Part shown: piece by piece, positions 27,358-34,208 of the stretch
Numbering within the stretch: the first letter of the stretch is position 1
Layout: each line of letters opens with the position of its first letter
From: Rhizobium grahamii
Lineage (GTDB): Bacteria > Pseudomonadota > Alphaproteobacteria > Rhizobiales > Rhizobiaceae
DNA: 64,000 nucleotides
Direction: 5' to 3'
NCBI RefSeq assembly: GCF_009498215.1
Contig: NZ_CP043499.1
Location: 1,872,001 to 1,936,000, forward strand
The notes under the pieces: generated by a model
Seen by the model: the letters and a program-made list of their open reading frames with translations, nothing else
Databases searched by the model: none
What the model was told of the DNA's origin: nothing
Translations under genes and position numbers: made by a program

Positions 27358-28119
27358 CTAAGCTTGGTCGTCGGAGGGTTTTCCGCTGCGGCTCTCCAGG
27401 CGATATCGGCTTGCCGGGTAGATAAGCCGAGCGGTCGACACCACGTGCTGGCCCGACCATGTTCTGCGCCGGATTGACAGGCAGGGTTCGCTTCTCAAAA
27501 TCGTCAGCAGTTTACACTCCCACGCTTGCGGCATAACGGCTTCTACGACGTGCTCGGAGCCGCTGAGAGGTGCGGTTGACGTTAGATAGGCGTTCGGCGT
27601 CAGGGAGGAGAAGTCCTGCGCGAGGTAGTCGGGTGCGGCCGCCGGATTGACGAAGCGGTCCTCGATCTGCACCGGGACGCCGTTCTCGCTGTGCACGACA
27701 AGAGAATGGAAAACGGGCGCCGCGATTTCGAGATCAAGTGCATCGGCGACCTCCGGGGAGGCCGTTTCAGATGCCAATACGATCACGGATGCATCGTGAA
27801 CATGGCCGCGTTCGGCAATCTCGTCGGCTATATTGCGGACCTCGAAGAGCGCCGAATAGCCTTTGCGCTCCGCAACGAAGGACCCAACGCCTTGAATTCT
27901 GACCAGCTCACCTTCGTTGGCGAGTTCCCGAAGGGCGCGATTGGCGGTCATCTTGCTGACGCCGAGTTCGCTAACCAGTTCATTTTCCGAAGGAACTCGA
28001 AACTTCGGAGGCCATTCACCGCTATGGATCCGATCAAGAATCATTTGCTTGACGCCAGCATAAAGTGGTGAGGTGTCGTGCTGCACCAGCTCTTGCTTCA
28101 TCTTGCCTGAATGCTTCAT
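27358..28119 (-). CDS. HutC-type GntR regulator
   Basis: A 253-residue repressor with an N-terminal GntR winged helix (FRVPSENELVSELGVSKMTANRALRELANEGELVRIQGVGSFVA, residues ~40-85) and a C-terminal UTRA ligand domain of the HutC type (ending SIRRRTWSGQHVVSTARLIYPASRYRL). HutC regulators usually sense urocanate or related compounds. It is divergent from the amino-acid transporter/lyase operon with a palindrome between them, so it most likely senses the substrate or product of that pathway. Confidence 0.87.
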   Translation of the reverse strand: MKHSGKMKQELVQHDTSPLYAGVKQMILDRIHSGEWPPKFRVPSENELVSELGVSKMTANRALRELANEGELVRIQGVGSFVAERKGYSALFEVRNIADEIAERGHVHDASVIVLASETASPEVADALDLEIAAPVFHSLVVHSENGVPVQIEDRFVNPAAAPDYLAQDFSSLTPNAYLTSTAPLSGSEHVVEAVMPQAWECKLLTILRSEPCLSIRRRTWSGQHVVSTARLIYPASRYRLESRSGKPSDDQA

Positions 28120-28189: not shown

Positions 28190-28203
28190 ATATGGTACCA
28201 TAT
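28190..28203. promoter_or_regulatory. Palindromic operator candidate for HutC-type regulator
   Basis: ATATGGTACCATAT is a perfect 14-bp palindrome in the divergent region, about 70 bases upstream of the regulator gene and 115 bases upstream of the binding-protein gene. It is embedded in AT-rich sequence suitable for overlapping promoters. HutC-group regulators bind short palindromes of this general type. Confidence 0.55.
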
Positions 28204-28317: not shown

Positions 28318-29160
28318 ATGAAATCCCATATGCTGTTTGTTTATGCTGCTTTGGCGCTCTCGACCGTTGCGGCGCCCGTCGCTGCCAAGGATTGGAAGAG
28401 CGCGACCATCACCCTTGAAGGTGCCTATGCGCCTTGGAACATGACCAATGCCGACGGCACGCTCGGCGGATTTGAACCGGAACTTGCCAAGGTTCTTTGC
28501 GAGCGCGCCGAGATCGAATGCAAGCTCGTCGCATCTGATTGGGACGGGATGATCCCGGCGCTGAATGCCGGTAAATTTGACGTGATCATGGATGCCCTTT
28601 CGATCACTGAGGATCGCAAGAAGGTCATCGGCTTCACGATCCCCTACGCCGCGACGCCTGCCGCCTTCGCGACCGCCAAGGATAGCCCGCTTGCCAACGC
28701 TGCCGGCACCGGCGCAACGATCAAGATGACGCCCGGCCAGACCGGCGTTAAGGAAGTCGATGCACTGAAGGAAGCTTTCAAGGGTAAGACGATCGGCATC
28801 CAGGCCGCGACTGTCTACGCCAAGTTCGTCTACGACAATTTCGGCGATATCGCTGAGATCCGTGAATACAAGACCGGCGCCGACCGCGATCTCGACCTGC
28901 AGAACGGCCGTATCGATCTTGGCTTCGACGATGCCGTCTATTTCGCCAACGCATTCCAGTCGGCCAACGACACGCTGGCCTTTACTGGCCCGGAAATCGT
29001 CGGCTCCATCTGGGGCGAGGGTGAAGGCCTCGGTGTCCGTCAGGCCGACACCGACCTTCGCGACAAGCTCAACGAGGCGATCAAGTCCGCACTCGCTGAT
29101 GGTACTGTGAAGACCCTGTCGATGAAGTGGTTCAAGGTCGACGTCAGCCCGCAAAACTGA
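28318..29160 (+). CDS. Polar amino-acid/opine-type periplasmic binding protein
   Basis: About 280 residues from the ATG at 28318, after a GAGGAGAGG site. Residues 1-22 form a signal peptide ending PVAA. ITLEGAYAPWNMTNADGTLGGFEPELAKVLCERAEIECKLVASDWDGMIPALNAGKFDVIMDALSIT is the standard family 3 pattern shared with HisJ, ArgT, NocT and OccT; the Asp in FDVIMDA-x and the Arg in TEDRKK contact the alpha-amino acid in relatives. The binding site should therefore accept an amino-acid-like ligand with a free or methylated amino group. It heads the operon that ends in the lyase and oxidase. Confidence 0.87.
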   Translation: MKSHMLFVYAALALSTVAAPVAAKDWKSATITLEGAYAPWNMTNADGTLGGFEPELAKVLCERAEIECKLVASDWDGMIPALNAGKFDVIMDALSITEDRKKVIGFTIPYAATPAAFATAKDSPLANAAGTGATIKMTPGQTGVKEVDALKEAFKGKTIGIQAATVYAKFVYDNFGDIAEIREYKTGADRDLDLQNGRIDLGFDDAVYFANAFQSANDTLAFTGPEIVGSIWGEGEGLGVRQADTDLRDKLNEAIKSALADGTVKTLSMKWFKVDVSPQN

Positions 29161-29260: not shown

Positions 29261-29986
29261 ATGGCAACACTGGAACTGATTGGATTCGGCTCGAACGGAT
29301 GGGGCGCGCTACTTCTGCTCGCCGCACTGATGACGCTTTGCGTGACCGCGACCGCGCTTGCGATCGGTGCCGTGCTTGGCGCGATAATCTCTGCCGCCAA
29401 GCTCTCCGGCAAGACATGGCTCGTCGCGCTCGGCAACGTCTACACAACCGTCTTTCGCGGTGTGCCGGAACTGCTGATCATCTACCTGATCTATTTCGGA
29501 GGTTCGTCGGCGGTAACCTCGATCGGCAAGGCGATGGGCTACGAAGGCTTCCTCGGGATGCCTTCGTTTCTCGCCGGCGCGCTGGCCGTCGGGATCATTT
29601 CCGGCGCCTACCAGGCTGAAGTCTTCCGTGGAGCCTACCTTGCCATTTCCAAGGGTGAGCTCGAGGCGGCATCGGCGATCGGCATGCATCGCGGCCTTCG
29701 GTTTCGCCGGATCATCATCCCGCAGGTGCTACGTTTCGCCATCCCCGGTCTCGGTAATGTCTGGCAGCTCAGCCTGAAAGACTCCGCACTGATTTCGGTG
29801 ACAGGCCTGGCGGAGCTGATGCGCACCAGTCAGGTGGCTGCCGGCTCGACCCGACAATATTTCCTGTTCTTCATCGTCGGCGGCATCCTTTATCTGATCC
29901 TCACCAGCCTCTCCGACCGGGTGTTCAACGGCGCCGAGCGGCGCGCCAACCGCAGCATGCCGACAGCGGCCATGGGAAAGGCGTGA
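29261..29986 (+). CDS. Amino-acid ABC transporter permease (HisQ/NocQ-like)
   Basis: A 241-residue inner-membrane permease of the polar amino-acid family with about five helices. VFRGVPELLIIYLIYFGG and EVFRGAYLAISKGELEAASAIGMHRGLRFRRIIIPQVLRFAIPGLGNVW contain the conserved EAA loop that docks to the ATPase. It pairs with the next permease to form the channel. The spacing to the next gene is about 9 bases. Confidence 0.9.
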   Translation: MATLELIGFGSNGWGALLLLAALMTLCVTATALAIGAVLGAIISAAKLSGKTWLVALGNVYTTVFRGVPELLIIYLIYFGGSSAVTSIGKAMGYEGFLGMPSFLAGALAVGIISGAYQAEVFRGAYLAISKGELEAASAIGMHRGLRFRRIIIPQVLRFAIPGLGNVWQLSLKDSALISVTGLAELMRTSQVAAGSTRQYFLFFIVGGILYLILTSLSDRVFNGAERRANRSMPTAAMGKA

Positions 29987-29995
29987 GGTAGGACG

Positions 29996-30700
29996 ATGGA
30001 TTTCGCTTTTCTCGCTCAAACGATGGGCACCCTGCTGAAGGCCGTTCCGATGACCTTGGCGCTGTTTTCGCTATCGGTCTTCTTCGGCGGCCTACTGGCG
30101 CTTCTGATTGTCTGGATGCGCGTCGGCGGCAACCCCGTCCTGTCGGCAATCGCCAAGGGGTACATCTTCATCTTCCGCGGCTCGCCGCTGCTGATCCAGA
30201 TGTTCCTTGTCTTCTACGGTCTCGGTCAGTTCGGCTTCATCCGCTACTCTTTCCTGTGGCCGTTCCTGCGCGAGCCATTCGTTTGCGCGGTATTGTCGCT
30301 GGCGCTCTGCACGGCGGGTTATTCGGCAGAGATTTTCCGTGGTGGCATTCGCGCCGTCTCGCCGCGCGAGATCGAGGCTGCCCGTTCGATCGGCATGTCC
30401 GGCGCGTTGCTCGTCCGCCGTATTCTGGCGCCGATCGCCTTCAGGCACGCGCTGCCTGCCTATTCCACCGAGATCGTCCTGATGATGAAATCGACGGCGC
30501 TGGCAAGTCTGGTGACCGTATGGGAAGTGACCGGTGTGGCGCAGCGGCTGATCTCGCAGACATACCGCACCATGGAAGTGTTTCTCTGCGCGGCCATCAT
30601 CTACCTTGTTCTCAACTTCATCATTCTGCAGGTGATGTCCCTGCTCGAATACTCGCTCTCACGGCACCGCCGCGCGATTCCGCCGGCGCTGAAGGCCTGA
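29996..30700 (+). CDS. Amino-acid ABC transporter permease (HisM/NocM-like)
   Basis: A 234-residue permease, the second half of the heterodimeric channel. [23 protein letters not shown] and [61 protein letters not shown] show the characteristic HisM-type helix and EAA loop. Together with the neighbouring ATPase it would import the substrate used by the lyase and oxidase encoded downstream. Confidence 0.9.
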
Positions 30701-30728: not shown

Positions 30729-31505
30729 ATGCCAGGCGTTACACGACTTTCCGTCCGCAACATCCGCAAGAGCTTCGGCACGCATGAGGTCCTTCGCGGC
30801 ATCTCGCTCGATGCGCAGGATGGCGACGTCATTTCCCTGCTTGGAGCCTCGGGCTCGGGGAAATCCACCTTCCTGCGTTGCATCAACCTGCTCGAGACGG
30901 CGACCGATGGCGAAATCTGGGTGGATGGAGAGCAGATCCGGATGATCCACAAGGGCGGCACGAGCCGTCCGGCGAGCCAGAAGCAGGTCGATCACATCCG
31001 CTCCGAACTCGGCATGGTCTTCCAGTCCTTCAATCTCTGGTCCCATATGACGATCCTGCAGAATGTCATCGAGGGGCCGGTCCATGTCCTGAAGCGTCCG
31101 CGTGCCGAGTGCATCGCGGAGGCCGAGGCACTTCTGGAAAAGGTTGGCATCGCTGCCAAGCGACACGCCTATCCGGCACATCTGTCCGGTGGCCAACAGC
31201 AGCGCGCCGCGATCGCCCGCGCGCTCGCCATGAAACCGAAGGTCATGCTGTTTGACGAACCGACTTCCGCGCTCGACCCGGAACTGGTCGGCGAGGTGCT
31301 GCGCGTCATGCGCGCGCTTGCGGAGGAGGGGATGACCATGCTGGTCGTAACCCACGAGATGAGCTTCGCACGCAACGTTTCCAACCGGGTTGTCTTCATG
31401 AAGGAAGGCCTTGTCGAAAGCACCGGTTCGCCGGACGAGATGTTCGGTGGCGGCGCCTCGCCTGCATTCCGCCAATTTATCGGTCACTTCGGAAACGGAC
31501 AATGA
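30729..31505 (+). CDS. Amino-acid ABC transporter ATPase (HisP-like)
   Basis: A 258-residue ATPase. [20 protein letters not shown] near residue 37 is Walker [18 protein letters not shown] the signature, [20 protein letters not shown] Walker B with the D-loop, and [12 protein letters not shown] the switch His; the spacing is that of HisP and GlnQ. Its stop codon overlaps the start of the lyase gene (ATGA at 31502-31505), tying the lyase to the transporter in one translational unit. Confidence 0.92.
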
Positions 31506-32995
31506 CAGTCACTATCGATGCGCGGATCGGCTGGCGCGACGTGGCGAGCGTGGCCGCCGGGGAGATGCTTGCGCTCTCTGACGGAGCTTGGGCGCGCGTG
31601 GACAATGCAGGCCGGATCGTCGAGCGGATCGTCGAAACCGGCGTGCGCGCCTATGGCATCAATACCGGCGTCGGCGCGTTGTCGGATACGGTCGTCGATC
31701 GCCCCTCGCAGAGCCGGCTTTCGCGAAACATCATCCTCAGCCATGCCTGCGGCGTCGGCGAATTGTTGGCGGCGCGCGAGGTTCGCGCGATCATCGCCGC
31801 GCAGATCGCAAATTTCGCGCATGGTCATTCCGGCGTCCGTGCCGATATCATCCGTCATCTGGCAGGGTTTCTGGAGCGGGACTGCGTACCGGATGTCCCG
31901 TCGAAAGGTTCCGCCGGTTATCTGACCCACAATGCCCATACGGCACTCGTGCTGATCGGCGAGGGAAGCGCATCCGTGGCGGGCAAGCGTATGCCGGGCC
32001 GCGAGGCACTGGCTGCGATCGGCCTTTCCCCGCTCGTTCTCGGCGCAAAGGAAGGCTTGAGCCTTGTCAATGGCACCGCTTGTGCGACGGGCTTGGCAAG
32101 TGTCGCATTGGCGCGCGCCAGCCATTTGCTCGACTGGGCAGACGCAATCGCGGCCCTGACGTTGGAGGCTGCCGGTTGTCAAATGGCAGCCTTCGACGAA
32201 GCCGTCCTGGCGCTTCGCCCATCGCGGGGCATCGCCTACGTCGGTGCTTCCCTGAGGCGCCGCCTCGACGGCAGCGGCCTGATAGGAGCGGCTCTCGGAA
32301 AACGCACACAGGATGCGCTGAGCCTGCGTTCCGTGCCGCATGCTCATGGCGCGGCGCGTGACGTCTTTGAAAACGCATCCGACGTCGTCGATCGTGAACT
32401 TGCTTCGGTAACCGACAATCCGGCGGTTTCGGGCACGCCCGAAAATCCTGTCGTGTCGTCGGAGGCTCACGCGGTTGCGCCCGCTCTTGCGGTGGCCTCT
32501 GATAGCCTGGCGATCGCGCTTGCGCAGATCTCCGCCATGAGCGAACGCCGCATGGATCGGCTGGTCAATCCGCTGGTGAGCGGCCTGCCGCCGTTCCTTG
32601 CGAGCGATGCCGGCAGCAATTCGGGCTTCATGATCGCCCAATACACAGCTGCGGCTCTCAGCAACGAGAACCGCCGTCTGGCGGCGCCCGCTTCCACCGA
32701 TGGCGGCCTGACCTCGGGCCTGCAGGAGGATTTCCTGGCCCACCCGACCGCAGCGGCAAACAAGCTTCTGTCTGTGGTCGACAACGCCGAGTATATCCTT
32801 GCGATCGAGTTGATGGCGGCGGCGCAGGCGCATGACTTCCTGGCGCCAACGGCTGCGCGCGCCCCAGGAACGGATGCCATCCACCGTGTCGTGCGCCAGG
32901 CTGTTGCGCACTACGCCGACGATCGGCCGCTTGCCGGCGACATGGAAGCGCTTCGTTCTCTGATCAGAGACGCGGCACCGCCCGCCCTGGGCTGA
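31502..32995 (+). CDS. Histidine ammonia-lyase-fold lyase lacking the MIO triad
   Basis: A 497-residue protein of the aromatic amino-acid lyase fold, about the length of histidase. Shared landmarks: the YGINTGVG loop (Tyr51), LSHACGVG (His81), NGT (Asn190), NSGFMIAQ near residue 373, and LQED (Glu409). The segment that in histidase is KGSVG-ASG-DLAPLAH reads [12 protein letters not shown] here, so the Ala-Ser-Gly that cyclises to the MIO cofactor is missing and the loop is 3 residues shorter. The catalytic Tyr of QDxYSLR is Leu273. It should therefore not be annotated as HutH. MIO-less relatives exist, notably ergothionase, which eliminates trimethylamine; a betaine or N-methyl substrate is plausible. 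Its start overlaps the ATPase gene. Confidence 0.82.
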
Positions 32996-33004
32996 GGAGT
33001 TGAA

Positions 33005-34162
33005 ATGACAGTTGAGTTCGACGTTGCCGTGATCGGCCTCGGCGCCATGGGAAGTGCAGCACTCTCTCACCTTTCGGCGCGTGGCGCCAAGGCGATCGGG
33101 ATCGACGCCTATTTCCCGGCCCATACGCTTGGTTCCTCGCATGGAGACAGCCGTCTCATCCGGCTCGGCTATTTCGAGGATCCATCCTATGTGCCGCTCT
33201 TGAAGCGTGCCTATCGTAACTGGCGGGACCTGGAGGCTCGGCTTCGCTCGGATATCCTGACGATCACCGGTGTTCTCCAGATCGGCAGCGAGAACAGCAA
33301 GATCGTCGCCGGAACGCGTGCGTCCTGCGAGATGCACGGATTGGCGCACGAAGTGTTCGACAAAAGCGAGATGGCGCTTCGGTTTCCCGCCTTCCAGCTC
33401 GACGATTGCGAAATCGCCATCCTTGACCCCCAGGGCGGCTATCTGAAGCCCGAGGCTGCCGTGATGGGTTATCTCAAGCTGGCAGCGCAAGACGGCGCAG
33501 TCCTGCATTTTGGCGAACGGGTTACCGCCATCGAACCGAGCGACAGCGGCGTGACGATCCGGTCGGCCGTTGGTCAATACCGCGCCAAGAAGGTCGTCGT
33601 CGCCACCGGTTCCTGGATCGCCGAGCTCGTTCCGCACCTGAAGGAGCATGCCGTCCCGATCCGGCAGGTCGTCGCCTGGTATCAGCCACGCGACGGCTTT
33701 GCGACCGAACCAAGACGCATGCCATGCTTCCTCCGCGACGAGGGAACAGAAGGCTCCTACTTCGGCTTTCCGGCAATTGGCGTCGATGGCGTCAAGATCG
33801 GACGGCATGCCCACTTCCGCGAGCCGATCGATCCCAATCAACCCAATCCGCCTGTCAATGAAGCGGACACCGCGCTGCTCGACGGCTTCATCGCAAAGCG
33901 TGTGCCTGCCGCTGCCGGCCTGCGGGTCAATGCGATTACCTGCCGCTATACGATGTTGCCAAGCGAGGACTTCCTGCTCGACTTTGCACCCGGCAATCCG
34001 AACGTGGTCGTCGCTTCGCCGTGCTCCGGGCACGGCTTCAAGTTCACCAGTGTCGTCGGTGAAATTCTTGCCGATCTCGCGCTCGAGGGCGGAACGAGCC
34101 TGCCGATCGGAGCCTTCTCGTTCGATGCCATGACGCGCTTTCTGGCGCAACGCCAACAGTAG
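33005..34162 (+). CDS. FAD-dependent N-methyl amino-acid oxidase (SolA/sarcosine oxidase-like)
   Basis: A 385-residue FAD oxidoreductase. FDVAVIGLGAMGSAALSHLSARG opens the Rossmann dinucleotide-binding motif, SSHGDSRLIRLGYFEDPSYVPL is the conserved His/Arg segment of monomeric sarcosine oxidase and N-methyltryptophan oxidase, and SPCSGHGFKFTSVVGEI near the C terminus includes the Cys to which FAD is covalently bound in that family. These enzymes oxidise N-methyl amino acids to formaldehyde and the amine. It is the last gene of the operon, 9 bases after the lyase. Confidence 0.84.
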   Translation: MTVEFDVAVIGLGAMGSAALSHLSARGAKAIGIDAYFPAHTLGSSHGDSRLIRLGYFEDPSYVPLLKRAYRNWRDLEARLRSDILTITGVLQIGSENSKIVAGTRASCEMHGLAHEVFDKSEMALRFPAFQLDDCEIAILDPQGGYLKPEAAVMGYLKLAAQDGAVLHFGERVTAIEPSDSGVTIRSAVGQYRAKKVVVATGSWIAELVPHLKEHAVPIRQVVAWYQPRDGFATEPRRMPCFLRDEGTEGSYFGFPAIGVDGVKIGRHAHFREPIDPNQPNPPVNEADTALLDGFIAKRVPAAAGLRVNAITCRYTMLPSEDFLLDFAPGNPNVVVASPCSGHGFKFTSVVGEILADLALEGGTSLPIGAFSFDAMTRFLAQRQQ

Positions 34163-34170
34163 CCGGACTG

Positions 34171-34196
34171 GAAAGGGGCCGAGATCAGCCCCTTTC
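34171..34196. terminator. Bidirectional terminator-like hairpin
   Basis: GAAAGGGGC (34171-34179) and GCCCCTTTC (34188-34196) form a 9-bp stem between the convergent oxidase and alpha-mannosidase genes. Confidence 0.65.
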
Positions 34197-34208
34197 GCCA
34201 CCAGGCAT

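Follow-up and report, generated by a model that had tools for sequence, protein, structure and literature searches.

A histidase-fold lyase without the MIO triad in Rhizobium grahamii: a predicted hercynine trimethylamine-lyase

A 64,000-nucleotide stretch of Rhizobium grahamii DNA (contig NZ_CP043499.1, positions 1,872,001 to 1,936,000; hereafter the window) encodes a histidase-like lyase that lacks the Ala-Ser-Gly (ASG) triad from which the MIO cofactor is formed. Judging from its sequence, its relatives and their gene context, we consider it moderately probable that this protein is an MIO-free hercynine trimethylamine-lyase, which would convert hercynine to urocanate and trimethylamine and thereby feed the Hut pathway. 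Hercynine, N-alpha-trimethyl-L-histidine or histidine betaine, is produced by fungi and actinobacteria as a precursor of ergothioneine. The lyase gene follows those of an importer and is itself followed by a gene for an amine oxidase; a divergent repressor gene lies close by (Table 1).

Table 1. Features of the lyase locus, in positions of the window (1 is its first letter).
Feature	Positions	Strand	Basis
HutC-type GntR/UTRA repressor, divergent from the transporter genes	27358..28119	-	TIGR02018, 297.6 bits (cut-off 220); GntR and UTRA
14-bp perfect palindrome ATATGGTACCATAT, candidate operator, between repressor and transporter	28190..28203	.	conservation
ABC importer substrate-binding protein, family 3, amino-acid type	28318..29160	+	PF00497
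ABC importer permease, HisQ/ArtQ-like	29261..29986	+	PF00528
ABC importer permease, ArtM/HisM-like	29996..30700	+	PF00528
ABC importer ATPase, HisP-like; 3' end overlaps the lyase start (ATGA)	30729..31505	+	profile match
MIO-less histidase-fold lyase, predicted hercynine trimethylamine-lyase, 497 aa	31502..32995	+	PF00221, NCBIfam, AlphaFold2 model
Codons 140-142, TAT CTG ACC, Y-L-T where ASG is expected; loop three residues shorter	31919..31927	+	alignment
Leu273 codon, motif QDALSLR, in place of the catalytic Tyr of QDxYSLR	32318..32320	+	alignment
N-methyl-L-tryptophan-oxidase-type FAD amine oxidase (MTOX/SolA), 9 bp past the lyase	33005..34162	+	NF008425, 418.1 bits (cut-off 257)

The MIO loop was compared with 15 ASG-bearing rows, 14 of the HutH type and one being the Agrobacterium vitis lyase L093, which read GS(V/L)GASGDLAPL(A/S)H. 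A preliminary description of the window had reported the YLT residues in the shortened loop and the exchange of the catalytic tyrosine for Leu273, with Tyr51, His81, Asn190, Arg276 and Glu409 kept; the alignment confirms each of these points. The kept residues are presumably those that face the imidazole and the carboxylate in histidase. Between 38 rows of the family and 14 HutH rows, the diagnostic positions are S74, Y140, H143, G248, L273, A322, L412 and A443; among others, Y51, H81, N190, Q270, R276 and E409 are shared. Loss of the tyrosine accompanies loss of MIO almost throughout: leucine replaces it in 40 of 41 rows with the three-residue deletion (GY type) and in all five ergothionase-type rows, which suggests that this tyrosine serves amine-MIO chemistry.

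Neither ASG nor CSG or SSG occurs anywhere in the window protein. In the alignment its sole TSG, at residues 404-406, falls opposite the TSANQED segment of HutH, outside the MIO loop; 22 of 86 MIO-less rows read TSA, TTA or TCA at this position. The earlier statement that MIO cannot form in this enzyme is supported by the deletion, which is invariant, by the loss of the tyrosine and by the lack of a triad elsewhere.

The reading frame opens with an ATG at 31502. Its product matches the aromatic amino acid lyase family PF00221 with 478.8 bits and scores below both curated hutH models (470.5 with a cut-off of 539.15, and 467 with a cut-off of 524). An NCBIfam scan of the protein returned no dedicated model for such a lyase; several ergothioneine-pathway enzymes do have models. 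Histidases are the best matches among PDB sequences (7tqr at 319 bits, Pseudomonas putida HAL at about 255), and the Treponema denticola ergothionase 6s7j reaches 189 bits. An AlphaFold2 model, computed from the window lyase and 35 of 80 fetched orthologues, has a mean pLDDT of 86.4 and a pTM of 0.90, with pLDDT below 50 at residues 398-412. Histidases also come first in Foldseek, with TM-scores of 0.90 and 0.88 to 1eb4 and 1b8f, and the VIA-align Z-scores are 43.4 for 7tqr, 42.5 for 3kdz, 42.1 for 1b8f and 41.3 for 6s7j. On this model, the fold cannot separate the families: ergothionase is nearly tied with histidases and a tyrosine aminomutase (Z 41-43).

With P. putida HutH (1b8f), an MIO-dependent enzyme, the lyase thus has in common the predicted fold, the remaining active-site residues and, at some loci, the hut context; it differs in the missing ASG and MIO, the missing catalytic tyrosine, the shorter loop and the scores under the hutH cut-offs. 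An ordinary histidase using some other electrophile would suit the nearest solved sequences and folds, as well as the public records, which name the relatives hutH, the mis-annotation that had been anticipated. However, the site holds no cyclisable triad, the curated hutH cut-offs are missed and the same genome carries one ordinary ASG histidase elsewhere, so that we give this explanation hardly any credence.

As close relatives we took the best 80 of 552 confirmed in genome contigs; these 80 are 68-92% identical to the window lyase and are not a random sample, and some are truncated by contig ends. They come from Rhizobium, Agrobacterium, Mesorhizobium, Phyllobacterium, Shinella, Aminobacter, Jiella and allies. 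All of these best 80 are free of internal stops and carry the GYL deletion, and Y51, H81, N190, Q270, L273, R276 and E409 are invariant in them. Since all 80 loci share an intact reading frame, the deletion and the invariant residues, chance or sequencing error is excluded.

A profile built from ten MIO-less sequences was then run against 398 Pseudomonadota genomes. It returned 23 matches at 619-867 bits, all of the GY type, the next match standing at 512 bits. The same seven residues are invariant in all 23 (45-100% identity, the window's own gene included), and eight have an ASG string, always outside the loop. The 512-bit match (L140, 8491-9960, genome G062) has the three-residue GY deletion yet keeps the catalytic tyrosine (QDTYSLR); it adjoins an amino-acid-type importer like that of the window.

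This conservation bears on another possibility, namely that the paralogue is catalytically dead and may serve HutH as a regulatory or structural partner. The loss of both MIO and the catalytic tyrosine would fit it, as would a statement on hutH1 in the excerpt of a review. Yet neither the best 80 of 552 nor the 23 phylum-level relatives vary at any of six further active-site residues, conservation extends over 45-92% identity, the gene shares its operon with those of an importer and a repressor, and HutU lies in the same stretch at 12 of 17 distant loci; we judge a dead paralogue very improbable.

The importer upstream of the lyase is a four-gene system of the HisJQMP kind. Within the best-80 set, 55 loci have a close ATPase, and 39 of these show the same spacing at the ATPase-lyase junction. 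The palindrome ATATGGTACCATAT recurs, exactly or with a single mismatch, in 50 of 52 orthologous intergenic regions; a control of 20 shuffles per region never gave fewer than two mismatches. We had expected an operator shared with the hut operon and reject it: the canonical hut box ATGTATATACAT is absent near the window operon, the best match in the window region having five mismatches, and a different palindrome stands in its place. As the two palindromes differ, the repressor's inducer may not be urocanate, which counts against the hercynine reading. Two HutC-type repressor genes of this genome each have a different palindrome beside them, ATGTATATACAT in the case of the hut operon (G000:C2 near 428459) and ATATGGTACCATAT here. 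On the minus strand, an antisense reading frame of 905 aa (window 31484-34201) spans the lyase and the oxidase; it overlaps well-supported genes and looks like a by-product of high GC.

Among the best-80 loci, the amino-acid type of importer is the commoner one (55 loci). Nine others, eight of Agrobacterium and one of Rhizobium oryziradicis, combine a betaine importer of the OpuAC type with a HutC-type gene (PF04069, OpuAC, was read in L045). A HutC-type gene is found at 65 loci of this set, and hut genes lie within 11 kb at 32 of them, the window not being one. An MTOX-type oxidase stands beside the lyase in 38 loci and is absent from the nine with OpuAC importers. Twelve loci, from Mesorhizobium, Aminobacter and allies, have none of the expected neighbours. 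The lyase operon of R. etli adjoins a full hut operon, the lyase of R. johnstonii is one gene away from hutC-hutF-hutI-hutH, and the relative in Sinorhizobium RAC02 has a ProV-type ATPase beside it.

The context was extended to 17 of the 23 genomes, those other than four of the window's genus, G237 and G058. At these loci from other genera and families, the importer is of the ProX/ProW/ProV betaine type in eight and of the amino-acid type in five; four have neither. HutU lies in the same stretch at 12 of the 17. Three of them (L130, L131 and L141) share the order HutC, HutD, HutU, betaine ABC importer, GY lyase, ASG HutH, HutI, HutG, with lyases 51-52% identical to that of the window. The L141 stretch begins at HutC; L130, in which the OpuAC domain was read, has an NCS1-type permease between HutU and the importer.

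The hercynine reading is supported by the invariant MIO-less state together with the six retained histidase active-site residues, and by the betaine importers beside some relatives. The more general prediction of the preliminary description, elimination of a leaving group that is already activated, such as trimethylammonium, probably holds on the same grounds, the retained imidazole and carboxylate residues and these importers. Against hercynine count the window importer, which is of the amino-acid (HisJQMP-like) and not the betaine type; the 12 of the best-80 loci without the expected neighbours and the four of 17 others without either importer; and the hut genes, within 11 kb at just 32 of the best-80 loci and not in the window. 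The MTOX neighbour suggests an N-methyl amino acid and is left unexplained by hercynine elimination; our guess is that it demethylates monomethylhistidine.

These points could favour another activated histidine derivative as the substrate, for example ergothioneine sulfonate, or N-methylated histidines handled together with MTOX. The oxidase directly downstream at 38 of the best-80 loci and the amino-acid-type importer of the window agree with this, and ergothioneine sulfonate pathway work is cited for A. radiobacter in the excerpt of PMC13405746. On the other side, MTOX is missing from the nine OpuAC-importer loci, and the one urocanase, which stays under the two thiourocanate cut-offs, indicates urocanate itself. 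Non-quaternary amines are, moreover, poor leaving groups without MIO. We regard such a derivative as improbable.

The pathway genes point towards urocanate as well. A single urocanase was found in the window's genome, whereas the models for thiourocanate hydratase, S-methylthiourocanate hydratase and thiohydantoin desulfurase gave no match there above their cut-offs. Nor does this genome carry an EgtD-family methyltransferase, so that the substrate is probably taken up; an EgtD-family gene occurs in four of the 23 lyase-bearing genomes, which counts against the hercynine reading. In 20 of these 23 genomes there is no thiourocanate hydratase over the cut-off. All 23 have a match below it, at 662-712 bits, in the range expected of a canonical HutU (693.6). 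The context argues that the product of the window lyase is urocanate; a quaternary histidine that yields urocanate is the simplest common denominator of the contexts, which leads to hercynine.

The remaining three genomes (L154, L155 and L156), all of the window's genus, carry both thiourocanate hydratase and thiohydantoin desulfurase over the cut-off; their GY lyases lie on different contigs from these two genes. Beside those genes stands a different MIO-less lyase, 29-30% identical to the ergothionase-type query; in L154 and L155 it reads GSIGCA-DI and QDPLSLR. The Rhizobium locus L154:8705-16107 holds an ergothioneine catabolic set in which ErtD and ErtE are also over the cut-off.

Would the window lyase itself be an ergothionase, converting ergothioneine to thiourocanate and trimethylamine, with thiourocanate passed to HutU or excreted? 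The T. denticola enzyme (6s7j, 6s7q) has the same fold, no ASG and leucine for the catalytic tyrosine, and loss of trimethylamine from a histidine betaine would be a further likeness, predicted only in the case of the window lyase. The excerpt of a 2026 paper (PMC13405746) names A. radiobacter among the organisms whose ergothionase is definitively identified; the window family is present in Agrobacterium. A HutU that accepts thiourocanate might, in addition, let ergothioneine be the substrate. In contrast, the ergothionase loop, SSIGEGDITTLSH, is one residue shorter than that of HAL, with the motif QDPLSFR, whereas the window loop is three residues shorter. Identity is 29% to 6s7j and 36-42% to the 14 HutH rows, and the two groups fall in separate clades. 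Thiourocanate hydratase, the expected partner of ergothionase, and the desulfurase are not found over the cut-off in the window's genome or in the 20 of 23 with the family, and the three Rhizobium exceptions have a separate lyase, with a one-residue deletion, beside those genes. An ergothionase is thus unlikely here. The phrase "as in ergothionase" of the preliminary description stands as an analogy; membership we reject, given the loop length, the separate clade and the missing pathway genes, and the context favours hercynine over ergothioneine.

The alignment with solved histidases and ergothionase and the tree of MIO-less members, both proposed in that description, underlie this outcome. 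Trees were computed from 61 rows after dereplication at 83%, and from a set of 50 for which 16 Rhizobiaceae rows were taken out and five rows brought in. The latter tree was rooted on aminomutase and aromatic-lyase rows, with the loop and residue-273 columns excluded; the phenylalanine aminomutase of the outgroup carries a TSG triad and counts as MIO-bearing. In the 50-row tree, the main window family forms an MIO-less clade of 22 rows, apart from the seven-row MIO-less clade of 6s7j, which contains L090, L091, L092, L139 and the lyases of L154 and L155. The last two sit on a very long branch (4.44), and their placement beside ergothionase is unsure. L091 and L092, from rhizobial plasmids, also have 6s7j as their first match when used as PDB queries. 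Forcing both MIO-less groups together was not rejected (p-AU 0.128), hence an origin independent of ergothionase is a lean only. A single origin of all GY-type sequences, those of Klebsiella, Priestia and L140 included, is neither shown nor rejected (p-AU 0.704 and 0.201; in the 0.704 run the constrained tree was 12 log units better than the quick free tree).

For the hercynine trimethylamine-lyase, the substrate, product, base, pocket and regulation that we infer would combine as follows. The betaine would be imported by the ABC importer encoded just upstream, and its imidazole and carboxylate held by Tyr51, His81, Asn190, Arg276 and Glu409. As the alpha-nitrogen is already quaternary and a good leaving group, no electrophilic MIO would be needed. 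Tyr51, which unlike the other catalytic tyrosine is retained, may be the base that would take a beta-proton; trimethylamine would depart and leave urocanate, which could be degraded to glutamate by the usual Hut enzymes. Leu273 and the shortened loop may offer the three methyl groups a hydrophobic pocket. The neighbouring HutC-type repressor would govern the operon via its own palindrome.

More distant relatives, about 40% identical and of unsure tree placement, come from Klebsiella and Priestia plasmids. The Klebsiella pneumoniae cluster (OW849244 P1; L087:974-12295) resembles the window family in its GY-type loop and in leucine for tyrosine; canonical HutU, HutI and HutF and a betaine importer of the OpuBC/OsmV type adjoin the lyase, together with HutD and a HutC-like gene. 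Its HutU scores as a urocanase (1019.6 bits), below both thiourocanate cut-offs, the exact hut box occurs twice, in two intergenic regions, and there is no second hutH within the 17.4 kb read. The lyase differs by its 39% identity to that of the window and by glycine in place of Asn190, an exchange that, like the low identity and unsure placement of both plasmid relatives, counts against the hercynine reading. Its public name is 'aromatic amino acid ammonia-lyase'. Its DNA matches 203 plasmid records, 191 of them from Klebsiella, 163 over at least 80% of the gene. The Priestia plasmid has a GY-type lyase with hutU, hutI and an agmatinase-family gene.

The gene order of L130, L131 and L141 recalls Pseudomonas fluorescens SBW25, for which an insertion hutTu-hutXWV-hutH1 is described in the excerpt of PMC8871633: the GY-type lyase occupies the place of hutH1. 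The likeness lies in the gene order, and the importers differ, a betaine type (hutXWV) there and the amino-acid type in the window. The match suggests that HutH1 belongs to the family of the window lyase. Two adjacent hutH genes also appear in the transcriptome of Pseudomonas J380 (PMC8069873, excerpt), and PA5093 of P. aeruginosa is labelled hutG in the excerpt of PMC12772324. This label may be a slip or may bear on the HutH1 family; we take PA5093 to be a histidase-like gene.

Altogether, we propose, with about even confidence, that MIO-free lyases include a second family, widespread and perhaps of independent origin from ergothionase, which would turn hercynine into urocanate and trimethylamine in a single step. 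It would link the histidine betaine of fungi and actinobacteria to the Hut pathway and explain HutH1 of pseudomonads, with relatives on many Klebsiella plasmids. Within the literature covered, which was partial and excluded most subscription papers, we found no publication on a hercynine lyase or on a distinct, widespread MIO-less family of which some members are tied to canonical Hut genes. What appears to be new is the second MIO-less family and its predicted substrate; the activated leaving group, and MIO-less elimination as such, are already known from ergothionase (PMC13405746, excerpt). If the proposal is true, many genes annotated hutH are wrong, the form being present in 23 of 398 sampled Pseudomonadota genomes, and mislabelled 'second histidases' are explained. 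Bacteria would have a sink for hercynine and a further source of trimethylamine, and the role of HutH1 (hutH1 is reported dispensable for growth on histidine) would become testable. Histidase chemistry would then work without its cofactor when the substrate brings its own leaving group.

Plasmids of two strains show other combinations. Priestia megaterium KF18 has two plasmid hut clusters (L085:611-9515 and L094); an ASG histidase is accompanied by HutP in one of them, and a GY-type lyase by MFS transporters in the other. On the plasmid of Agrobacterium vitis F2/5 (L093:5111-9473), a lyase with intact ASG and tyrosine lies beside amidohydrolase and Zn-dependent hydrolase genes; by its sequence, it is predicted to be an MIO enzyme in a hydantoinase-like context.
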